DNA from: Alloprevotella sp. oral taxon 473 str. F0040
GTDB lineage: Bacteria > Bacteroidota > Bacteroidia > Bacteroidales > Bacteroidaceae
Reading direction: 5' to 3'
DNA length: 64,000 bases
NCBI RefSeq assembly: GCF_000318095.2
Contig: NZ_KB290714.1
Span: 1 to 64,000, forward strand
The notes beneath the pieces are model-generated. The model saw only the letters and a program-made list of their open reading frames with translations. It made no database searches and had not been told where the DNA came from. Position 1 is the stretch's first letter. Each line of letters opens with the position of its first letter. Positions 14,866 through 57,417 of this stretch are shown here, piece after piece. A program made the translations under genes and the position numbers.

Positions 14866-14893
14866 CCCCCTATTATATACTGGGTTGAAATGG
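14866..14893 (+). repeat. CCCCCTA...GGGTTGAAAT motif (copy 1)
   Basis: CCCCCTATTATATACT followed by GGGTTGAAATGGG. The inverse complement of nearly the same motif occurs at 55367-55393. In both places it stands about 235 nt outside the nearer end of an inverted-repeat element, in mirrored orientation. Confidence 0.5.
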
Positions 14894-15102
14894 GCCAAAA
14901 GAGAGAAAATCCGCGTTAAATGATGTCAAACCGCTCCATTTTTCTGCATTTTTACTCGAAAGTCGGATGCTACAGCGCACACAGTCTTCGAACAGACCTC
15001 TCTGACTTTTCTCAAATCAGTGGAAAAACTGGCCTTCCCCTGCTTCCATGCCCTTCTCTTCTACAAGCCATGATTCCAGTGTCTCATGGAGTATGTTTCT
15101 CA

Positions 15103-15383
15103 CGCGTGCGCGTCGCACGCGCCTTCCCTGGGATTTTGACTTTTTCTCTTTCACAACCTTCACAAAAGTCGACAACAACTTATCTTGTTCCCCTTCCGCA
15201 AGTCACTCATACGTGATGTGACTTGCGGAAGGCAAAAGCAGCATTTTTCGATACAAAACTCACCATTCTGTTAAAAATTGTCCGAAAAACACGTGTTATT
15301 CTCTGTAATACAACTCATTACAGACAAATCGGTGAAGGTTGTGAAAGCAAAAACATCAACTTTGCTGTACGTACGCGCGCGAG
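15103..15383. repeat. inverted-repeat element with CG-rich tips (copy 1)
   Basis: The left arm has CGCGTGCGCGTCGCACGCGC (15103-15122) and then CTTTCACAACCTTCAC (15148-15163). The right arm has the exact complement GTGAAGGTTGTGAAAG (15332-15347), an A-rich spacer and GTACGTACGCGCGCGAG (15367-15383). Between the arms lie 168 nt that include a perfect 15-bp hairpin and a 7-bp hairpin (15303-15323). No reading frame spans it. A second element with the same arms but a different interior is at 54751-55134, which suggests a small mobile or RNA-encoding element. Confidence 0.75.
15192..15232. ncRNA. perfect 15-bp stem-loop inside the inverted-repeat element
   Basis: CCTTCCGCAAGTCAC at 15192-15206 pairs perfectly with 15218-15232 around an 11-nt loop. 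There is no T tract on either side, so it is not a standard terminator. Whether it is transcribed is unknown; it could be an RNA structure, a protein-binding cruciform or a recombination site. I list it as a candidate only. Confidence 0.35.
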
Positions 15384-15561: not shown

Positions 15562-15670
15562 GTCGCAGATTTTGGTGCAAAAAGTCCGAGTTTCTCTCAA
15601 ATATCTCCGAGATTTTCTGAAAAAACTCGGAGATATTTTCGTAAAAATCCGACAAAACTTTGCCAAAACT
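15562..15670. repeat. 21-nt degenerate repeat tract (copy 2)
   Basis: Four to five units related to ATCTCCGAGATTTTCTGAAA with a spacing of about 21 nt; some units appear as the complement (CTCGGAGATATTTTC), so the tract can also fold. Related tracts lie at 231-310, 34475-34588 (inside a gene) and 54986-55030. Confidence 0.7.
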
Positions 15671-50737: not shown

Positions 50738-53443
50738 ATGAAACAATTCTTCTTGCGCTATCGCTTAGATTTGCTCTTCGTTTTGGGCTTCATGCTCTTG
50801 AGTTGGGCATATTTCTTCACCCCGCTCAAAGAACACCTCGTACTGGGTGGACACGACACTGTGGCTGGTATGTGGCAAAGCCGCGAACAAGCCCCTCTGC
50901 TTGATGCCACAGGCGAAAAAAGCTGGTGGAGCAACGGCATCTTCTCTGGAATGCCCAACTATCAGATTTCTCCTTCCTATGGTTCTTCGACTCTGTTGGG
51001 ATGGGTGGGTCGTCTCATCACGCTCCTCTCCACAGGGCCACTGAGTTTTGTGTTTCTCTATCTCTTTGGGTTCTACATCTTGATGCGCTCGTTGAAACAG
51101 CGTCCATTAGTTTCCGCCTTCGGTGCTGTAGCTTGGGCATTTTCGAGCTATTTCTTCATCATCATTGCCGCTGGTCACTTATGGAAAGTCGCTACCCTTG
51201 GCTTCATCCCTCCCACCATCGCCGGTTTGGTGCTCGCCTATCGCGGCAAATATCTTTGGGGAGCTTTAGTCACTGCCCTATTCACAGGGTTACAGCTCTA
51301 TAGCAACCACCCACAGATGACCTACTATTTCCTCTTTGTGATGCTCTTCTTGGTCATCGCTTATGGTGTAGAAGCTGCACGCCAAGGCACCTGGGCGCAA
51401 TGGCTCAAAGCTTCGGGAGCAGTCATTGTGGGGGGACTCATGGGATTGATGATGAATCTGCCCAATATGTACCACACTTGGCAATATGCTAAAGAATCGA
51501 TGCGCGGCAAGAGCGAACTCACCTTCAACCCCGCCAAGATGTCAAAGCAGTCTTCCGCTGCTGCACAAGGCGCAGCAAGTGGTGCCGACAGTGCTGAGGG
51601 CACTGACCGCGCCACCAATGGACTCGACCGCGACTACATCACGCAGTGGAGCTATGGCATCGATGAAACTCTCACCCTCATGATTGCCAACTTCAAAGGC
51701 GGCGGTTCGGCTAGTATCCAACAACTGGACAATGCCGATCAGCTCAATGGCTACGAAGAAACCCTACAACATGCAGGTCAATTGCAACAAGCCATGGGCG
51801 AAAATGCAGGTTCATTACCAGGCATCAATCAATATTGGGGCAACCAGCCCTTCACCGTTGGTCCTGTGTATGTCGGTGCCATCATCTGCTTCTTGTTCCT
51901 CCTCAGCCTTGGTTTTGTGCGCGGCCCTATGAAATGGGGGCTCCTCGCTGCGACCTTCCTTTCACTCCTCTTCGCTTGGGGCAAAAACCTAATGCCAGTG
52001 ACAGATTTCTTCATCGATCACTTGCCGATGTATGCTAAGTTCCGTACGGTATCTTCCGCTTTAGTAATAGCAGAATTCACCATTCCTTTGCTCGCCATTT
52101 TAGCCTTAGCAGAAGTGATTCGTCGCCCTGATGAACTCTTCAAGACGCGTCGCGGACAATACTCTTTCCTCTTTGCTAGCCTCTTCTCTGCTGGTTTGTG
52201 TCTACTCTTGGCAGTAGCTCCTAGTATGAGCAATCTCTTGGCAGAAAGCGACAAAGAAATTTTCACCCAACTGCAATCTATGGGTGTTCCTGCCGATTTC
52301 GTTTCTGGTTATCGCGCTGCAGTGACCACACTCCACGGCTCCGTTCTTTCGGCCGATGCATGGCGCTCATTCTTCCTCATCGCCATTGCAATGACCTTAG
52401 TGGCCATCTATGCCCGCTATCCTCAAAAGCTCCCTGCTCCCCTCATGGTAGGTGCACTCCTCGTGCTCACACTCGGTGATATGTGGACGGTCAATAAGCG
52501 TTATCTCAACACCGACAGTTTCTCCGAACCTCAAGCCATGGAGGAAGGACTGAAGAAGACGCCTGCCGACGAAACGATTCTCCAAGACAAATCTTTGGAT
52601 TATCGCGTGCTCAATCTCGGCAATGGTGGTAGTCCTTTCAACGAAACTAGCAACCAAACAGCTTATTGGCATAAATCTGTCGGAGGTTATCACGCTGCTA
52701 AGCTCCATCGCTATCAAGATATCATCGATGCCTATCTCAACGCGGAATGCGTGGCACTCAACAAAGCCATTCAACAGCGTTACAGTGCCCTCTTAGCCGA
52801 CAGTAATCATTTGGCGGCACGTGGCATCACCTCGCAGGCTGATCTCGTAAAAGCTGTGAGTCAAGAACTGCGCACCGACTCTGTGTCGCCTGTGCTCAAC
52901 ATGCTCAACACGAAGTGGGTGATTCTGGCTGGTGGACAGTTTGCCGTGGAAAATCTTAGCACCAATGGCAACGCATGGTTTGTAGACCGCCTAGACTTCG
53001 TGCCCAATGCCGATGCAGAACTCAAGGCTCTCGCTAAGACCGACTTGAAACACGCTGCTGTGGCGGACGAACGTTTCAAAACTGACCTCGCTACCTCCAC
53101 TTTGGGCAACGGAACAGTGAAGCTCACGCACTATCAACCCAACGAACTCCGCTATGCTGTGCAGAGTGAAAAAGGAGGTGTAGTTGCTCTTTCCGAAATC
53201 TATTATCCTGGTTGGACAGCTACGCTCGATGGTCAGGAAATCCCCGTGGCACGTGTGAACTATGTACTGCGTGCGGTGAAAGTGCCTGCAGGCCAACACA
53301 CGCTCGTGCTCACTTTCCGTCCAGTTTCAGTGAAAACCACGGAGATTATCGCTTATCTCACACTCGCTCTCTTAGCCCTCGGCTTCGCCTTTGCACTGTG
53401 GCAGAGCTTCCGTTCGCAAAAGGGTAATCCTACCCAGGCCTAA
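50738..53443 (+). CDS. YfhO-family large membrane protein
   Basis: A 901-residue polytopic membrane protein with about 12 membrane helices. The start resembles GT-C glycosyltransferase-like proteins (FFTPLKEHLVLGGHDTVAGMWQSREQAPLLDATGEKSWWSNGIFSGMPNYQIS), with acidic residues in the first periplasmic loop. A long extracytoplasmic domain fills the last third and ends in the YfhO signature ALSEIYYPGWTATLDGQEIPVARVNYVLRAVKVPAGQHTLVLTFRP before a last helix. In Gram-positives YfhO is involved in glycosylating lipoteichoic acid; the role in Bacteroidetes is unknown. Residues about 265-285 are an Ala/Ser/Gly-rich low-complexity loop. It appears to be transcribed alone. Confidence 0.88.
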   Translation: MKQFFLRYRLDLLFVLGFMLLSWAYFFTPLKEHLVLGGHDTVAGMWQSREQAPLLDATGEKSWWSNGIFSGMPNYQISPSYGSSTLLGWVGRLITLLSTGPLSFVFLYLFGFYILMRSLKQRPLVSAFGAVAWAFSSYFFIIIAAGHLWKVATLGFIPPTIAGLVLAYRGKYLWGALVTALFTGLQLYSNHPQMTYYFLFVMLFLVIAYGVEAARQGTWAQWLKASGAVIVGGLMGLMMNLPNMYHTWQYAKESMRGKSELTFNPAKMSKQSSAAAQGAASGADSAEGTDRATNGLDRDYITQWSYGIDETLTLMIANFKGGGSASIQQLDNADQLNGYEETLQHAGQLQQAMGENAGSLPGINQYWGNQPFTVGPVYVGAIICFLFLLSLGFVRGPMKWGLLAATFLSLLFAWGKNLMPVTDFFIDHLPMYAKFRTVSSALVIAEFTIPLLAILALAEVIRRPDELFKTRRGQYSFLFASLFSAGLCLLLAVAPSMSNLLAESDKEIFTQLQSMGVPADFVSGYRAAVTTLHGSVLSADAWRSFFLIAIAMTLVAIYARYPQKLPAPLMVGALLVLTLGDMWTVNKRYLNTDSFSEPQAMEEGLKKTPADETILQDKSLDYRVLNLGNGGSPFNETSNQTAYWHKSVGGYHAAKLHRYQDIIDAYLNAECVALNKAIQQRYSALLADSNHLAARGITSQADLVKAVSQELRTDSVSPVLNMLNTKWVILAGGQFAVENLSTNGNAWFVDRLDFVPNADAELKALAKTDLKHAAVADERFKTDLATSTLGNGTVKLTHYQPNELRYAVQSEKGGVVALSEIYYPGWTATLDGQEIPVARVNYVLRAVKVPAGQHTLVLTFRPVSVKTTEIIAYLTLALLALGFAFALWQSFRSQKGNPTQA

Positions 53444-53557
53444 TCCATTCTCTCTATCACACTAATATCAATGCCCACCCTAAATGCTTCTCACATTTCA
53501 AAAGGGGGAGCTAAAGAATAGAATCAGGCATGGATATTCCCCCTAACAAGACTTCTT

Positions 53558-54526
53558 ATGCGCACTTTTTTTATTTCTCGCTTCCTATGGATGCTAATAG
53601 GAGTTTCGCTGCTCACACTTGGTGCTTGTCGCAAAGACAAACCCATTAATGAGTTTCCCGACCCTGGTAGCATTCTGTCTCCAGATATTATCATCGAAAA
53701 CGGAGTCCTCAAGAAGTGGCCCAACTATGATGTTCCTGTTTCAGGCTCTATCACCATTCCTGACTATGTGACCTCTATAGCGGATGGTGTTTTCAGCAAT
53801 TACAAAGATTTGAAGCACGTCAAGTTTCCTGCTGGTCTCAAATCTATCGGTGCGCGTGCCTTCCAAGGATGCAGTGCGCTCAACAATGTTGTGCTTCCCG
53901 AACAATTACAAAGCATCGAGGAAAAAGCCTTTATGAACTGTACTCGAATGACCAATATCAGTTTTGGCACAAAAATAACCTCTATGGCAGCTAGTGTTTT
54001 TGAAAACTGCACTGCATTACAGCAAATCACACTTTCTTCCTCTATAAAAACAATGGGAGAACGTACGTTTTGGGGGTGCAAGGCTCTCTCTAAAGTGACA
54101 CTTCCAGCACAAATGACAACACTGCCCAAGAGTACGTTTTCGTATTGCTCCCAACTGGCAGATGTAACACTTCCTCCTCATCTACAAACCATAGAAGGTG
54201 CAGCTTTCTGGCAATGCAGTAACCTGAAACAAATAGAACTCCCAACCACTTTGCAAAGCATTGGTTCTGCCTCTTTTGATGGTTGTAGTTCACTCATGTC
54301 TATTACTTTTCCTGCAAGTCTTCAACAACTAGGAGAGAGCATTTTTCATGGTTGCGATCACTTAGACAATCTCACTTGCCTAGCTCCTAATCCCCCTACG
54401 TTCACACAGAATGCTACAGATCCCTTGAGTTATTATCGGCAGCTTACGGTCCCTTCAGGCAGCAAGGGGCGTTATGAAGTGGCGCAAGGATGGAAACGAT
54501 GCAAACCTATTGTAGAAATACAATAG
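53558..54526 (+). CDS. BspA-like leucine-rich-repeat lipoprotein
   Basis: A 322-residue lipoprotein with Cys at residue 24 (LTLGACRKDKP). After a short linker, residues about 70-285 are eight to nine LRR_5 units of about 23 residues with the pattern (L/I)xxIxxxAFxxCxxLxxVxLP, for example LKSIGARAFQGCSALNNVVLP and LQSIEEKAFMNCTRMTNISF. The last part (FTQNATDPLSYYRQLTVPSGSKGRYEVAQGWKRCKPIVEI) is the cap seen at the end of many Bacteroidetes LRR_5 proteins. Such proteins are surface-exposed and often adhesive; a binding partner cannot be given. A strong terminator follows about 110 nt downstream. Confidence 0.92.
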   Translation: MRTFFISRFLWMLIGVSLLTLGACRKDKPINEFPDPGSILSPDIIIENGVLKKWPNYDVPVSGSITIPDYVTSIADGVFSNYKDLKHVKFPAGLKSIGARAFQGCSALNNVVLPEQLQSIEEKAFMNCTRMTNISFGTKITSMAASVFENCTALQQITLSSSIKTMGERTFWGCKALSKVTLPAQMTTLPKSTFSYCSQLADVTLPPHLQTIEGAAFWQCSNLKQIELPTTLQSIGSASFDGCSSLMSITFPASLQQLGESIFHGCDHLDNLTCLAPNPPTFTQNATDPLSYYRQLTVPSGSKGRYEVAQGWKRCKPIVEIQ

Positions 54527-54632
54527 ATATGCATTGATTGTAATGCAACCTACCAGTCGCTTCTTACTACTCTTATCAATCTTTCTAAGAACTCTATCTG
54601 AAGAGTATAGCTAAAAGCCTCTTACATGTTAC

Positions 54633-54673
54633 AGGTATTCATTCGTAATTATCGATGAATACCTGCTTTTTTG
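54633..54673 (+). terminator. terminator of the LRR lipoprotein gene
   Basis: CAGGTATTCAT (54633-54643) pairs perfectly with ATGAATACCTG (54656-54666), followed by CTTTTTT. Confidence 0.92.
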
Positions 54674-54750
54674 ACAACATCGCGACACAGATCTGGTTGA
54701 GCTCAAGAGAAGAAAAAACTACAAGTTAAAAAGAATAAATCAAGATTTCT

Positions 54751-55134
54751 CGCGCACGCGTACGCGCGCGCACCCTGCAATTTACACTTTTTGCTTTCAC
54801 AACCTTCACCATTTTCCGCTTAACATTATCTATTACAGCAATATACAGCATATTTATAACATCTTTTTTGAGAATTACTCAGAAACCGTGGAAAGGGAAG
54901 CAAAAATATAGATTATTCAATCAGAAAAATAGAATTATCGTACACTAAACTTGGAGCAAATTCTAGAATTCTCTGAGCGCAGTATAAAAAAGTCGAAGAT
55001 TTCTCATAAAATCTCCGACTTTTTCTTCGTATAACTCCTTGATTCTTATATAGAAATAGAATAGAGAAACAAACATCCTGTGAAGGTTGTGAAAGCAAAA
55101 AGTGCAAATTTCCTGACATGCGCGCGCGTACGCG
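54751..55134. repeat. inverted-repeat element with CG-rich tips (copy 2)
   Basis: The left tip CGCGCACGCGTACGCGCGCG (54751-54770) is followed by an arm at 54786-54809 that contains GCTTTCACAACCTTCAC. A perfect 24-bp complement lies at 55080-55103 (GTGAAGGTTGTGAAAG...), followed by GCAAATT and the right tip GCGCGCGCGTACGCG (55120-55134). The similarity of the arms continues imperfectly into the tips. The 270-nt interior is AT-rich, differs from that of copy 1 and carries a 21-nt repeat tract. No reading frame spans it. Confidence 0.8.
54986..55030. repeat. 21-nt degenerate repeat tract (copy 4)
   Basis: AAAGTCGAAGATTTCTCATA followed by AAATCTCCGACTTTTTCTTC: two units facing each other, so the tract can fold as a hairpin. 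It is related to the tracts at 231, 15562 and 34475. Confidence 0.6.
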
Positions 55135-55366
55135 AGGGTTATCACAATTTTCTACTGACCCTCTTCTGGCAAATAGAAAATCAGCAAGCCACTATAAACA
55201 CAATGCCTCGAATCACAAAGCCTCGTGAGAGGAGAATATAAGATATAAAGAGTTCTGGTTTCTAAGAAAGGTTATCACTGCTAGAAAATGACAACTGGAA
55301 ATGGCAAAAAAAGGATTCTTCAAAAATTATCTTCACTTTTTCGTCGTTTTTTCACTCTTTGCCTCT

Positions 55367-55393
55367 ATTTCAACCCCTATTATATGTAGGGGG
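55367..55393 (-). repeat. CCCCTA/TAGGGG hairpin motif (copy 2)
   Basis: ATTTCAACCCCTATTATATG followed by TAGGGGG. CCCCTA and TAGGGG can pair around a 7-nt loop. The motif is the inverse of the one at 14866-14893, and both lie about 235 nt outside an inverted-repeat element. Confidence 0.5.
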
Positions 55394-55691
55394 ATCGTTG
55401 AAAGAACAAGAAGGAAAAGAGGAAAAGAGCTTCACACCAAATAATAGAAAAAACTTCGAGGATTGTTGCGATTAAATCTTTGAAGTATGCTAAATATAAC
55501 TCGTTGAAGTAGCCAATATGGCACAAAAAAATGGGATACCACTGTACCCCAACCTTGTTAACCTTAAATCTAATACTATGAAAAACACATTGCAAAGATA
55601 CCATTTTCTTCGCAACTCTGCAAGAGTTTTACCTAATTATTTTATGAAACAATCCGTTTTTCGTTCATTATTGGGTATTATAGCTTCAAAT

Positions 55692-55728
55692 AAAAGAAAA
55701 ATCGCACAATTAAATTGAGCGATTTTTC
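55692..55728 (-). terminator. terminator of the nucleoside kinase gene
   Basis: AAAATCGC (55698-55705) pairs with GCGATTTT (55719-55726), with CAATT/AATTG inside. On the minus strand the stem is followed by TTTTCTTTTA. It lies about 30 nt after the stop codon. Confidence 0.78.
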
Positions 55729-55758
55729 TGATTCCAACTGGATTTTCTGCAGAATGTT

Positions 55759-57417
55759 TCAATAGTTGAAAGTGCTGCTACCCATAAATTCTCGCAGGAG
55801 AGAGGTCGGAGGCACAGCATCGAGAGGCATGGGAGTGAAATAGGAGATAAACTTGCGAAGGCGATAGGCTTCGGAGTATTCTTCAGCACTTTCAGGCACC
55901 ATCTCAAGGAGGGGTAGGGCTTGCGCACGGAGAGCAGCAAGTTCGTAGATGAGGGCGGTGTTGAACATGGTGTCTGCTTGTTCTTGGAAGGGGAAAATCC
56001 ATTTCTCTTCGCCAGCCGTGACGGATGCGCAACGACGGATGACCTCTTGAGGATGATAGCCACGATATTTATAGTCGCGACAGATGCGGCGCAGCAATCG
56101 GCTATCGCTGGTAGGAATATAGTTGTGGTCGTCGAGCATGATAGTGGTCAGCGCAGAAGCATAGATTTTATACTTGGCTTCGGCAGGAATTTTCTCACTC
56201 ATGCGAGGGTTGAGGGCGTGGTTGCCTTCGAGGATGAGAATGGTCTCGGGCTCTAGGCGCAGGAATTTTCCACTAGGACGACTCTTGCCAGAGGGGAAGT
56301 CGAAGAGGGGCAATTCCACTTCTAAACCGGCAAGCAGTTGCGACATCTGATTGTTGAAGAGTGGCAAGTCTACTGCTTCGATGGTCTCAAAGTCGTAATC
56401 GCCATTTTCATCGAGGGGAGTTGCTTCGCGATCCACAAAGTAGTTGTCGAGCGAGATGCTCACAGGACGTTTGCCACAGGCACGAAGCTGCACCGACAAC
56501 CGTTTGCTGAAGGTAGTCTTTCCTGAAGAAGAAGGACCTGCAATGAGCACCACTTTAATGTGGTCATGAGCCGCGATATGATCGGCTATCTTTGCGATTT
56601 GCTTCTCTTGCAAGGCTTCGGCCACATTGACTAAATCGTTGGTGGCTCCCGCACGAATGGCCTTGTTGAGCTCCCCCACTGTAGTGCATCCGAGGATTTC
56701 TTGCCGACTGTGCTGCTCTTGAAAGACATCGAACATCTTGCTTTGTTCGGTCATGGGGCGCAGTTGGCTGGGCTGTTTGGGATCAGGCACGCGGATGAGG
56801 AGTCCTTCGCCATAGGTGACGAGGTCAAACAGAGTGAGTTGTCCTGTGCGGAGGAGAAGTGCGCTGTAGAAATAGTCGACGGTATCGTCGAGTATGTAGT
56901 AATGAGTGTAGAGATCACCGATGCTCTCGAGCAACTGCACCTTGCGTGTGAGCCCTTGACTGCGAAAGACTTCTATTGCCTCCGTGGTGTGTGCTGTGAC
57001 GCGACGGAAGGGGATATCCGCTTCTACAATTTCTGCCATGCGCTGACGCAGTTGCACTGCAATCTCAGGCGTTACACCACCTTCTACTTCAAGATGGCAA
57101 TAGTAACCTCCTGCCACAGGAGTGCCGATGCGGAGGTTAGAGCCGGGGAAGAGGTCGCGAGTGGCTTTGTAAAGCACAAAAAAGAGGCTGCGCGTGTAAG
57201 TGCGCAAACCTGAGAGAGAGGTAAGTGTGAGAAATTCGAGGTCGCGCGAATCGTTGATGGTGTAGTGCAAGCCTTCCACACGATTATTGACCTTGCAGCT
57301 TGTAACACAGCAAGGGTGCTCGAGTCCCAAACTAGCATATACTTCTTCCAAGGTAGCACCTTTAGGCACTTCGTGATACTGCCCTGTATTTTTACAGAAG
57401 ATTTTAATGAGTTTCAT
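55759..57417 (-). CDS. TGS-domain nucleoside kinase (uridine-kinase-like)
   Basis: A 552-residue fusion known in Bacteroidetes as nucleoside kinase. Residues 1-60 are a TGS-like domain (IFCKNTGQYHEVPKGATLEEVYASLG), followed by a ThrRS-type second additional domain (about 150-215, with HTTEAIEVFRSQGL and HYYILDDTVDYFY). The C-terminal half is a P-loop kinase of the PRK/uridine kinase type: GPSSSGKTTFSKRLS near residue 290, ISLDNYFVDREATP, DFETIEAVDLPLFN and LEGNHALNPRM. It probably phosphorylates uridine or cytidine; the reason for the tRNA-synthetase-like part is unknown. TTAGAC-type repeats lie just upstream. Confidence 0.92.
   Translation of the reverse strand: MKLIKIFCKNTGQYHEVPKGATLEEVYASLGLEHPCCVTSCKVNNRVEGLHYTINDSRDLEFLTLTSLSGLRTYTRSLFFVLYKATRDLFPGSNLRIGTPVAGGYYCHLEVEGGVTPEIAVQLRQRMAEIVEADIPFRRVTAHTTEAIEVFRSQGLTRKVQLLESIGDLYTHYYILDDTVDYFYSALLLRTGQLTLFDLVTYGEGLLIRVPDPKQPSQLRPMTEQSKMFDVFQEQHSRQEILGCTTVGELNKAIRAGATNDLVNVAEALQEKQIAKIADHIAAHDHIKVVLIAGPSSSGKTTFSKRLSVQLRACGKRPVSISLDNYFVDREATPLDENGDYDFETIEAVDLPLFNNQMSQLLAGLEVELPLFDFPSGKSRPSGKFLRLEPETILILEGNHALNPRMSEKIPAEAKYKIYASALTTIMLDDHNYIPTSDSRLLRRICRDYKYRGYHPQEVIRRCASVTAGEEKWIFPFQEQADTMFNTALIYELAALRAQALPLLEMVPESAEEYSEAYRLRKFISYFTPMPLDAVPPTSLLREFMGSSTFNY

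Follow-up and report, generated by a model that had tools for sequence, protein, structure and literature searches.

We propose, with a probability of roughly one half, that an inverted-repeat element located at about 15099-15383 of the window (the first 64,000 nucleotides of contig NZ_KB290714.1 of Alloprevotella sp. oral taxon 473 str. F0040; genome G000, assembled as 2.55 Mb in 24 contigs) is one site of a dispersed, clade-specific, cis-acting family of putatively protein-bound sites, carried by a few related oral bacteria resembling Prevotella, that would organise the chromosome. According to the proposed mechanism, a sequence-specific DNA-binding protein would occupy both arms of a pair and bridge them into a loop of ~180 bp, with the boxes held at fixed, near-helical spacing, and the Z-prone tips of the element may respond to, or buffer, supercoiling. 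Such arm complexes would organise the chromosome as domain anchors, topological barriers or sites for segregation or condensation of the origin region, and not as controls of neighbouring genes. The organising role is suggested by the distribution of the sites, which lie at even intervals, cluster around oriC and are few near the presumed terminus.

Anatomy and copies of the element

The element extends slightly past the limits drawn for it by the first-pass annotation, whose description of the arms is borne out: perfect 16-mers lie at 15148-15163 (the reverse complement of GTGAAGGTTGTGAAAG, minus strand) and 15332-15347 (GTGAAGGTTGTGAAAG, plus strand), with 168 nt between them, and identical arms recur at 54794-54809 and 55080-55095. 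Seven arm matches with at most three mismatches were found in the window for 0.69 expected, a number reached in 0 of 100 shuffles. From the outside inwards, an element end consists of a CG-rich tip of ~20 nt with alternating pyrimidines and purines (Y-R), an intermediate segment of ~24 nt and the 16-nt arm, which is a direct repeat of a ~7-mer (CTTTCAC-aa-CCTTCAC in the window element). Two main end types, A and B, were distinguished. A ends carry TACAGCAATTTT.. within the intermediate segment and one of three motifs (TTTCGGACAwwTTTTAACA, TATTAGGAACrxxGTTC or TTTATAACATxxTTTTAGA) 45-62 nt inside the arm; B ends carry CTTCCCTGGGATTTT and have nothing constant inside. The remaining interior is private to each copy.

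The window element has its B end at the left and its A end at the right. Its left tip (15099-15122) is CG-rich, mostly alternating and, as had been noticed earlier, self-complementary around its centre, and it is followed by the B-type intermediate segment CTTCCCTGGGATTTTGACTTTTTCT (15123-15147). The interior (15164-15331; 166 nt in the orthologue) is largely free in sequence and constrained in length, and its final portion (15269-15331, minus strand) forms the inner part of the A-type end, with a motif of the TTTCGGACAwwTTTTAACA type 45-62 nt inside the arm together with TGTAA/TTAC boxes. Beyond the right arm lie the A-type intermediate segment CAAAAACATCAACTTTGCTG (15348-15367; ..CAGCAAAGTTGATGTTTTTG on the other strand) and an alternating tip that terminates in CGCGCGCGAG (15368-15383). 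The second window element (54749-55136) has an A3-type left end and a 270-nt interior with 21-22-nt CTCCGAC repeats. About 400 nt beyond it, a match of 73 bits to the Rfam family FopS (family of paralogous sRNAs, RF04319) was observed at 55522-55588 on the minus strand; a stretch overlapping this match recurs, 96% identical, elsewhere in the sister species (2,626,555).

In the 2.55 Mb of G000, the arm (CTTTCACAACCTTCAC/GTGAAGGTTGTGAAAG) is present at about 46 places, 44 of which hold a complete inverted pair, with more than 80 exact occurrences and seven with one mismatch. Half-elements are few in this assembly and sit at scaffold gaps or break points. In the sister species, Prevotellaceae bacterium Marseille-P2826 (LT608321.1, a scaffold of 2,762,878 nt; G033), 43 inverted pairs of the same arm were found, and ~34 elements occupy identical intergenic places in both species. 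Searches with the G000 arm gave no match or single chance matches in the other genomes of the genus, and none in viral contigs, plasmids and phages. Elements measure ~290 bp and longer (range 290-800 bp). In G000, interiors are 166-168 nt long in 15 of 44 cases, the others falling at 154-156, 177-179 and 189 nt and in longer classes of 249-251, 270-271, 292-293 and 314-315 nt; long interiors also hold 21-22-nt CTCCGAC/GTCGGAG repeats.

Several observations concern the surroundings and the assembly of these copies. Mirror-image repeats spaced by 21-22 nt occur inside long elements and outside them, at window positions 15584-15653 and at loci L207, L211 and L215 of genome G063, with a species-specific word (CTCCGAC/GTCGGAG in G000, CTCAGAGGTAGTT in G063). 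A second dispersed repeat, CCCCCTATTATATATGGGTTGAAATxGGxCAAAGAGTGAAAA, was found at 14868-14915 and, on the opposite strand, at 55340-55430; it lies outside many elements at a variable distance of 100-600 nt, and is a separate motif of promoter-like or protein-binding character. Gaps of 20 N in or beside elements L034, L036, L042, L045, L046, L048, L051 and L058, mostly with duplicated arm sequence, represent scaffold joins placed where assemblers failed to merge an element. The two halves of another element are 17 kb apart in G000 (C17:653,832 and 670,844; L066, L075); the element is whole in G033 (L099) and looks split by insertion or rearrangement in G000. A break point of interspecies rearrangement coincides with the 54.8-kb element (window 52700-57300 vs 1.721 and 1.739 Mb of G033), and no clean empty site for this copy was found in G033 because that genome is rearranged there.

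Selective constraint and species-specific arm words

Orthologous elements of the two species were matched through their flanks, with 34 pairs accepted and a 35th listed pair (L051) dropped as a weak false match. Arm identity was 985/992 (99.3%), a value inflated by ascertainment, because the copies had been located through their arms. Outside the arms, identity fell to 84% for the intermediate segments, 82% for the tips and 73% for the interiors, against 64% for the outer flanks; since the search made no use of tips or intermediate segments, these provide independent evidence of constraint. Substitutions in the tips are mainly transitions (ts/tv 2.4 vs 0.5-0.7 elsewhere, Fisher p = 5e-25), which indicates that the Y-R alternation is kept, and its level reaches 0.875 vs 0.51 in shuffles. 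In a scripted scan of contig C14 (447 kb), 18 of the 23 alternating runs of at least 16 nt were located within element tips, and three further runs adjoin elements broken by assembly gaps.

The length of the interior is also held. It differs by 0-2 bp in 22 of 23 short-class orthologue pairs (the exception by 21 bp), although sequence identity in these interiors is only 58-95%, whereas the distance to the next conserved flank block varies by up to 251 bp (p = 4e-6 against interior length). Interior spacing is near-constant in length between orthologues and falls into discrete classes (144, 155, 166, 177 and 188; 250, 271, 292, 314 and 336). This rule covers about half of the copies because longer interiors vary freely. 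A single ~10.5-bp periodicity across the whole range of interior lengths was rejected, being driven by the 165-168 class and weak without it. Altogether, the sites are apparently kept by selection as conserved, spaced and oriented pairs.

A model built from the sequence of A ends alone was used to seek distant relatives, and returned weak relatives in genomes G063 and G064. These have the tips, T-run and inverted arms of the family and are clear homologues. The arm word differs by genome: CCTTCACTGCCTTCAC in G063, CCTTCACTGCCTTCGC in G064, CTTCCACTGC(C/T)TCCA in G005 and a CCTACAC-type word in G032. A general signature of element ends (CTCGCGCG, 8-38 nt, TTTTT) was enriched over its reversed control in G000, G033, G063, G005 and G032; a weak excess was seen in G064 and perhaps in G023, and no sampled genome outside the genus showed comparable enrichment. 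Furthermore, several G063 elements adjoin the same genes as those of G000 and G033, and beside one methyltransferase gene all four of G000, G033, G063 and G005 carry an element, with three arm words among them. From the combination of shared architecture and places with species-own arm words, we infer joint change of the sites and of a recognition factor acting in trans; the species-own word suggests that such a trans-acting binder exists. Gene conversion is improbable as an alternative, since tips and arm-adjacent interiors stay locus-specific.

Distribution along the chromosome

The cumulative GC skew of contig C14 has its minimum at 125 kb, and eight DnaA boxes (at most one mismatch) were found within 700 nt at 110.5 kb of this contig (L376:6500-6900, about 110.5-110.9 kb), the next-best cluster having three. 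The same cluster occurs in G033 at about 1.680 Mb (L127:3611-3880), near the skew minimum. On the basis of box cluster and skew minimum, this 1.8-kb intergenic region of both species is taken as the probable oriC; dnaA itself lies ~0.6 Mb away in G033. One element (L043/L127) shares the region in both species, ~220 bp from the DnaA boxes.

Elements are concentrated around this position. In G033, taking the scaffold order as assembled, the 600 kb on either side of oriC hold 33 of 43 elements for 18.7 expected (p = 9e-6), and a single 1.1-Mb stretch contains 37 (mean 23 and maximum 33 in simulations). In G000, the 447-kb oriC contig carries 19 of 46 elements for 8.1 expected (p = 1e-4). This origin bias is a statistical one, and the two species have it in part through common descent. 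A terminus-type distribution such as that of matS was rejected, as GC skew and DnaA boxes place the dense region at the origin instead. Spacing is also more even than random, with a coefficient of variation (CV) of 0.47 vs 0.93 on C14 (p = 0.0008) and of 0.63 vs 0.96 in G033 (p = 0.002); mean spacing is 24-30 kb and no two elements are closer than ~11 kb. On C14, elements occupy intergenic gaps of 0.7-2.1 kb (the median over all gaps is 161 nt), and convergent, divergent and tandem contexts are used alike, without depletion of convergent gaps (11 of 43 cases). About a quarter of the sites are absent from the sister species, and two origin-near sites of G000 carry no element in G033, which indicates that single sites are dispensable.

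Known chromosome-organising sites, such as matS (bound by MatP), SlmA-binding, Noc-binding and parS sites, are single palindromes of 13-16 bp. The present family resembles them in comprising tens of short conserved sites with an origin or terminus bias and no gene-orientation rule, and its distribution is non-random relative to oriC and the terminus, as is characteristic of such sites. It differs in that its sites are paired at a fixed spacing, measure ~290 bp or more and bear alternating tips and ends of two types, and in its enrichment on the origin side; in addition, each of the known families is bound by one protein, whereas binding is presumed for ours. In our analysis, the distribution thus appears most like that of matS-, SlmA- or Noc-type families, and the architecture differs. 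Ordinary parS sites are present as well.

None of the described families fits, no paper containing the arm was found in a literature search and, to our knowledge, few chromosome-organising sites have been described in Bacteroidota. At somewhat less than even odds, the elements may represent a novel chromosome-architecture system of one Bacteroidales clade, in which a putative protein would loop paired sites of ~180 bp that bear Z-prone tips and recur every ~20-30 kb around oriC, protein and sites changing word together between species. Some 45 evenly spaced, origin-centred and selected paired sites offer a concrete and testable handle, as their known sequence allows pull-down of the binder. 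The change of arm word between species supplies a natural series for the study of protein-DNA co-evolution, and the tips, a rare natural set of selected alternating Y-R tracts, allow a direct test of whether Z-DNA or supercoil buffering plays a part in a bacterial chromosome.

Alternative explanations

MITEs, REP/BIME repeats, invertons and structured RNAs each have at least one defining feature that was tested and is missing from these elements. A MITE family is unlikely. According to it, A and B would be the left and right ends of a transposon, arms and tips the transposase sites and interiors decayed filler, with copies surviving as selfish relics or because a transposase is still active. 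Inverted ends, intergenic position, tens of copies, two end types and the presence/absence differences between G000 and G033 agree with this explanation. So does the precedent of Porphyromonas gingivalis, whose BrickBuilt, MITE464 and PgRS elements are likewise from Bacteroidales, intergenic and present in tens of copies, some with internal repeats of 22-23 or 41 nt (PMC4596501). BrickBuilt, however, carries 12-nt terminal repeats of IS5-like type together with some target duplications (PMC4596501), neither of which was seen in the present family, where flank matches of 1.36 and 1.09 against shuffled values of 1.17 ± 0.25 and 0.94 ± 0.21 give no signal of target-site duplication. Interiors of different copies are unrelated outside the end motifs and the 22-nt repeats, so that full-length homology is missing; most copies keep their position in the sister species, as do several in G063, with arms that stay near-identical; and 138 flanking proteins (90-420 aa) included no transposase among the matches listed, XerD aside. 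More generally, nothing systematic that could be a linked binder or transposase was found among the matches listed for flanking genes. The family may nonetheless descend remotely from a transposon that was later domesticated.

Operator pairs of a global DNA-looping transcription factor that controls the neighbouring genes would share with the chromosome-organising sites the paired boxes, the near-constant spacing, the intergenic position and the species-specific binding word. This explanation is rather improbable, given that 11 of 43 elements lie between convergent genes and upstream positions are not preferred, that flanking genes are of mixed housekeeping function with no shared regulator among the matches listed, and that a regulon would not be expected to show even spacing or origin bias.

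It is quite doubtful that the elements are repeats of the REP/BIME kind, kept up by a RAYT transposase and used by gyrase or nucleoid proteins. They do have in common with REP/BIME/REPIN sequences the intergenic inverted pairs and the species-specific words (PMC3733652), as well as hairpin-capable tips, and CTAC/GTAG adjoins many tips in G063. On the other hand, the constant GTAG/CGTC tetranucleotide is missing from the G000/G033 end consensus, units of 290-800 bp with constrained spacing are much longer than REP dimers (PMC3733652) and are under purifying selection in place, and a rough motif for RAYT-like proteins found none in the scanned sequence of G000 and G033.

A non-coding RNA or transcript hairpin, as the first-pass annotation suggested in proposing a transcribed or protein-bound cargo, is very improbable. 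The perfect 15-bp stem that it reported is present (15192-15206/15218-15232, with the whole hairpin at 15192-15232), as is a small second hairpin at about 15299-15327, and the predicted fold of the element is stable (z = -8.1), largely because the arms are inverted; terminator-like hairpins also occur in some copies. The 15-bp hairpin is nevertheless private to the window copy: no counterpart aligns in the G033 orthologue (L128), whose interior has a longest perfect stem of 7 bp or less, below the ten longest in G033, and the small hairpin is not conserved either. Pairing is kept neither among copies nor in the orthologue, with no compensatory changes, and this lack of conservation is what the annotation itself had named as grounds for abandoning the hairpin cargo. 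In most of 87 interiors, stems are no longer than in shuffled sequence, and an Rfam search with the window element matched no family. An RNA helix of the arms was ruled out, as no covariation was seen between the outer arms; the two outer segments of an element are less complementary to each other than ends combined at random, which indicates two different ends rather than a paired RNA stem. What stands of the earlier proposal is protein binding, which for the arms and tips is supported by near-invariant arms, fixed spacing and species-specific arm words.

Finally, invertible DNA flipped by a recombinase can be practically dismissed: inverted repeats around a short segment are a common device in Bacteroidales, whose invertible promoters enclose 100-600 bp, but the ends here are complex and different from each other, neither promoter placement relative to genes nor any promoter logic was seen, and no inversion separates the two species, as 34 of 34 accepted orthologue pairs score better in the same orientation and the sole opposite-scoring pair (L051) is not a true orthologue.
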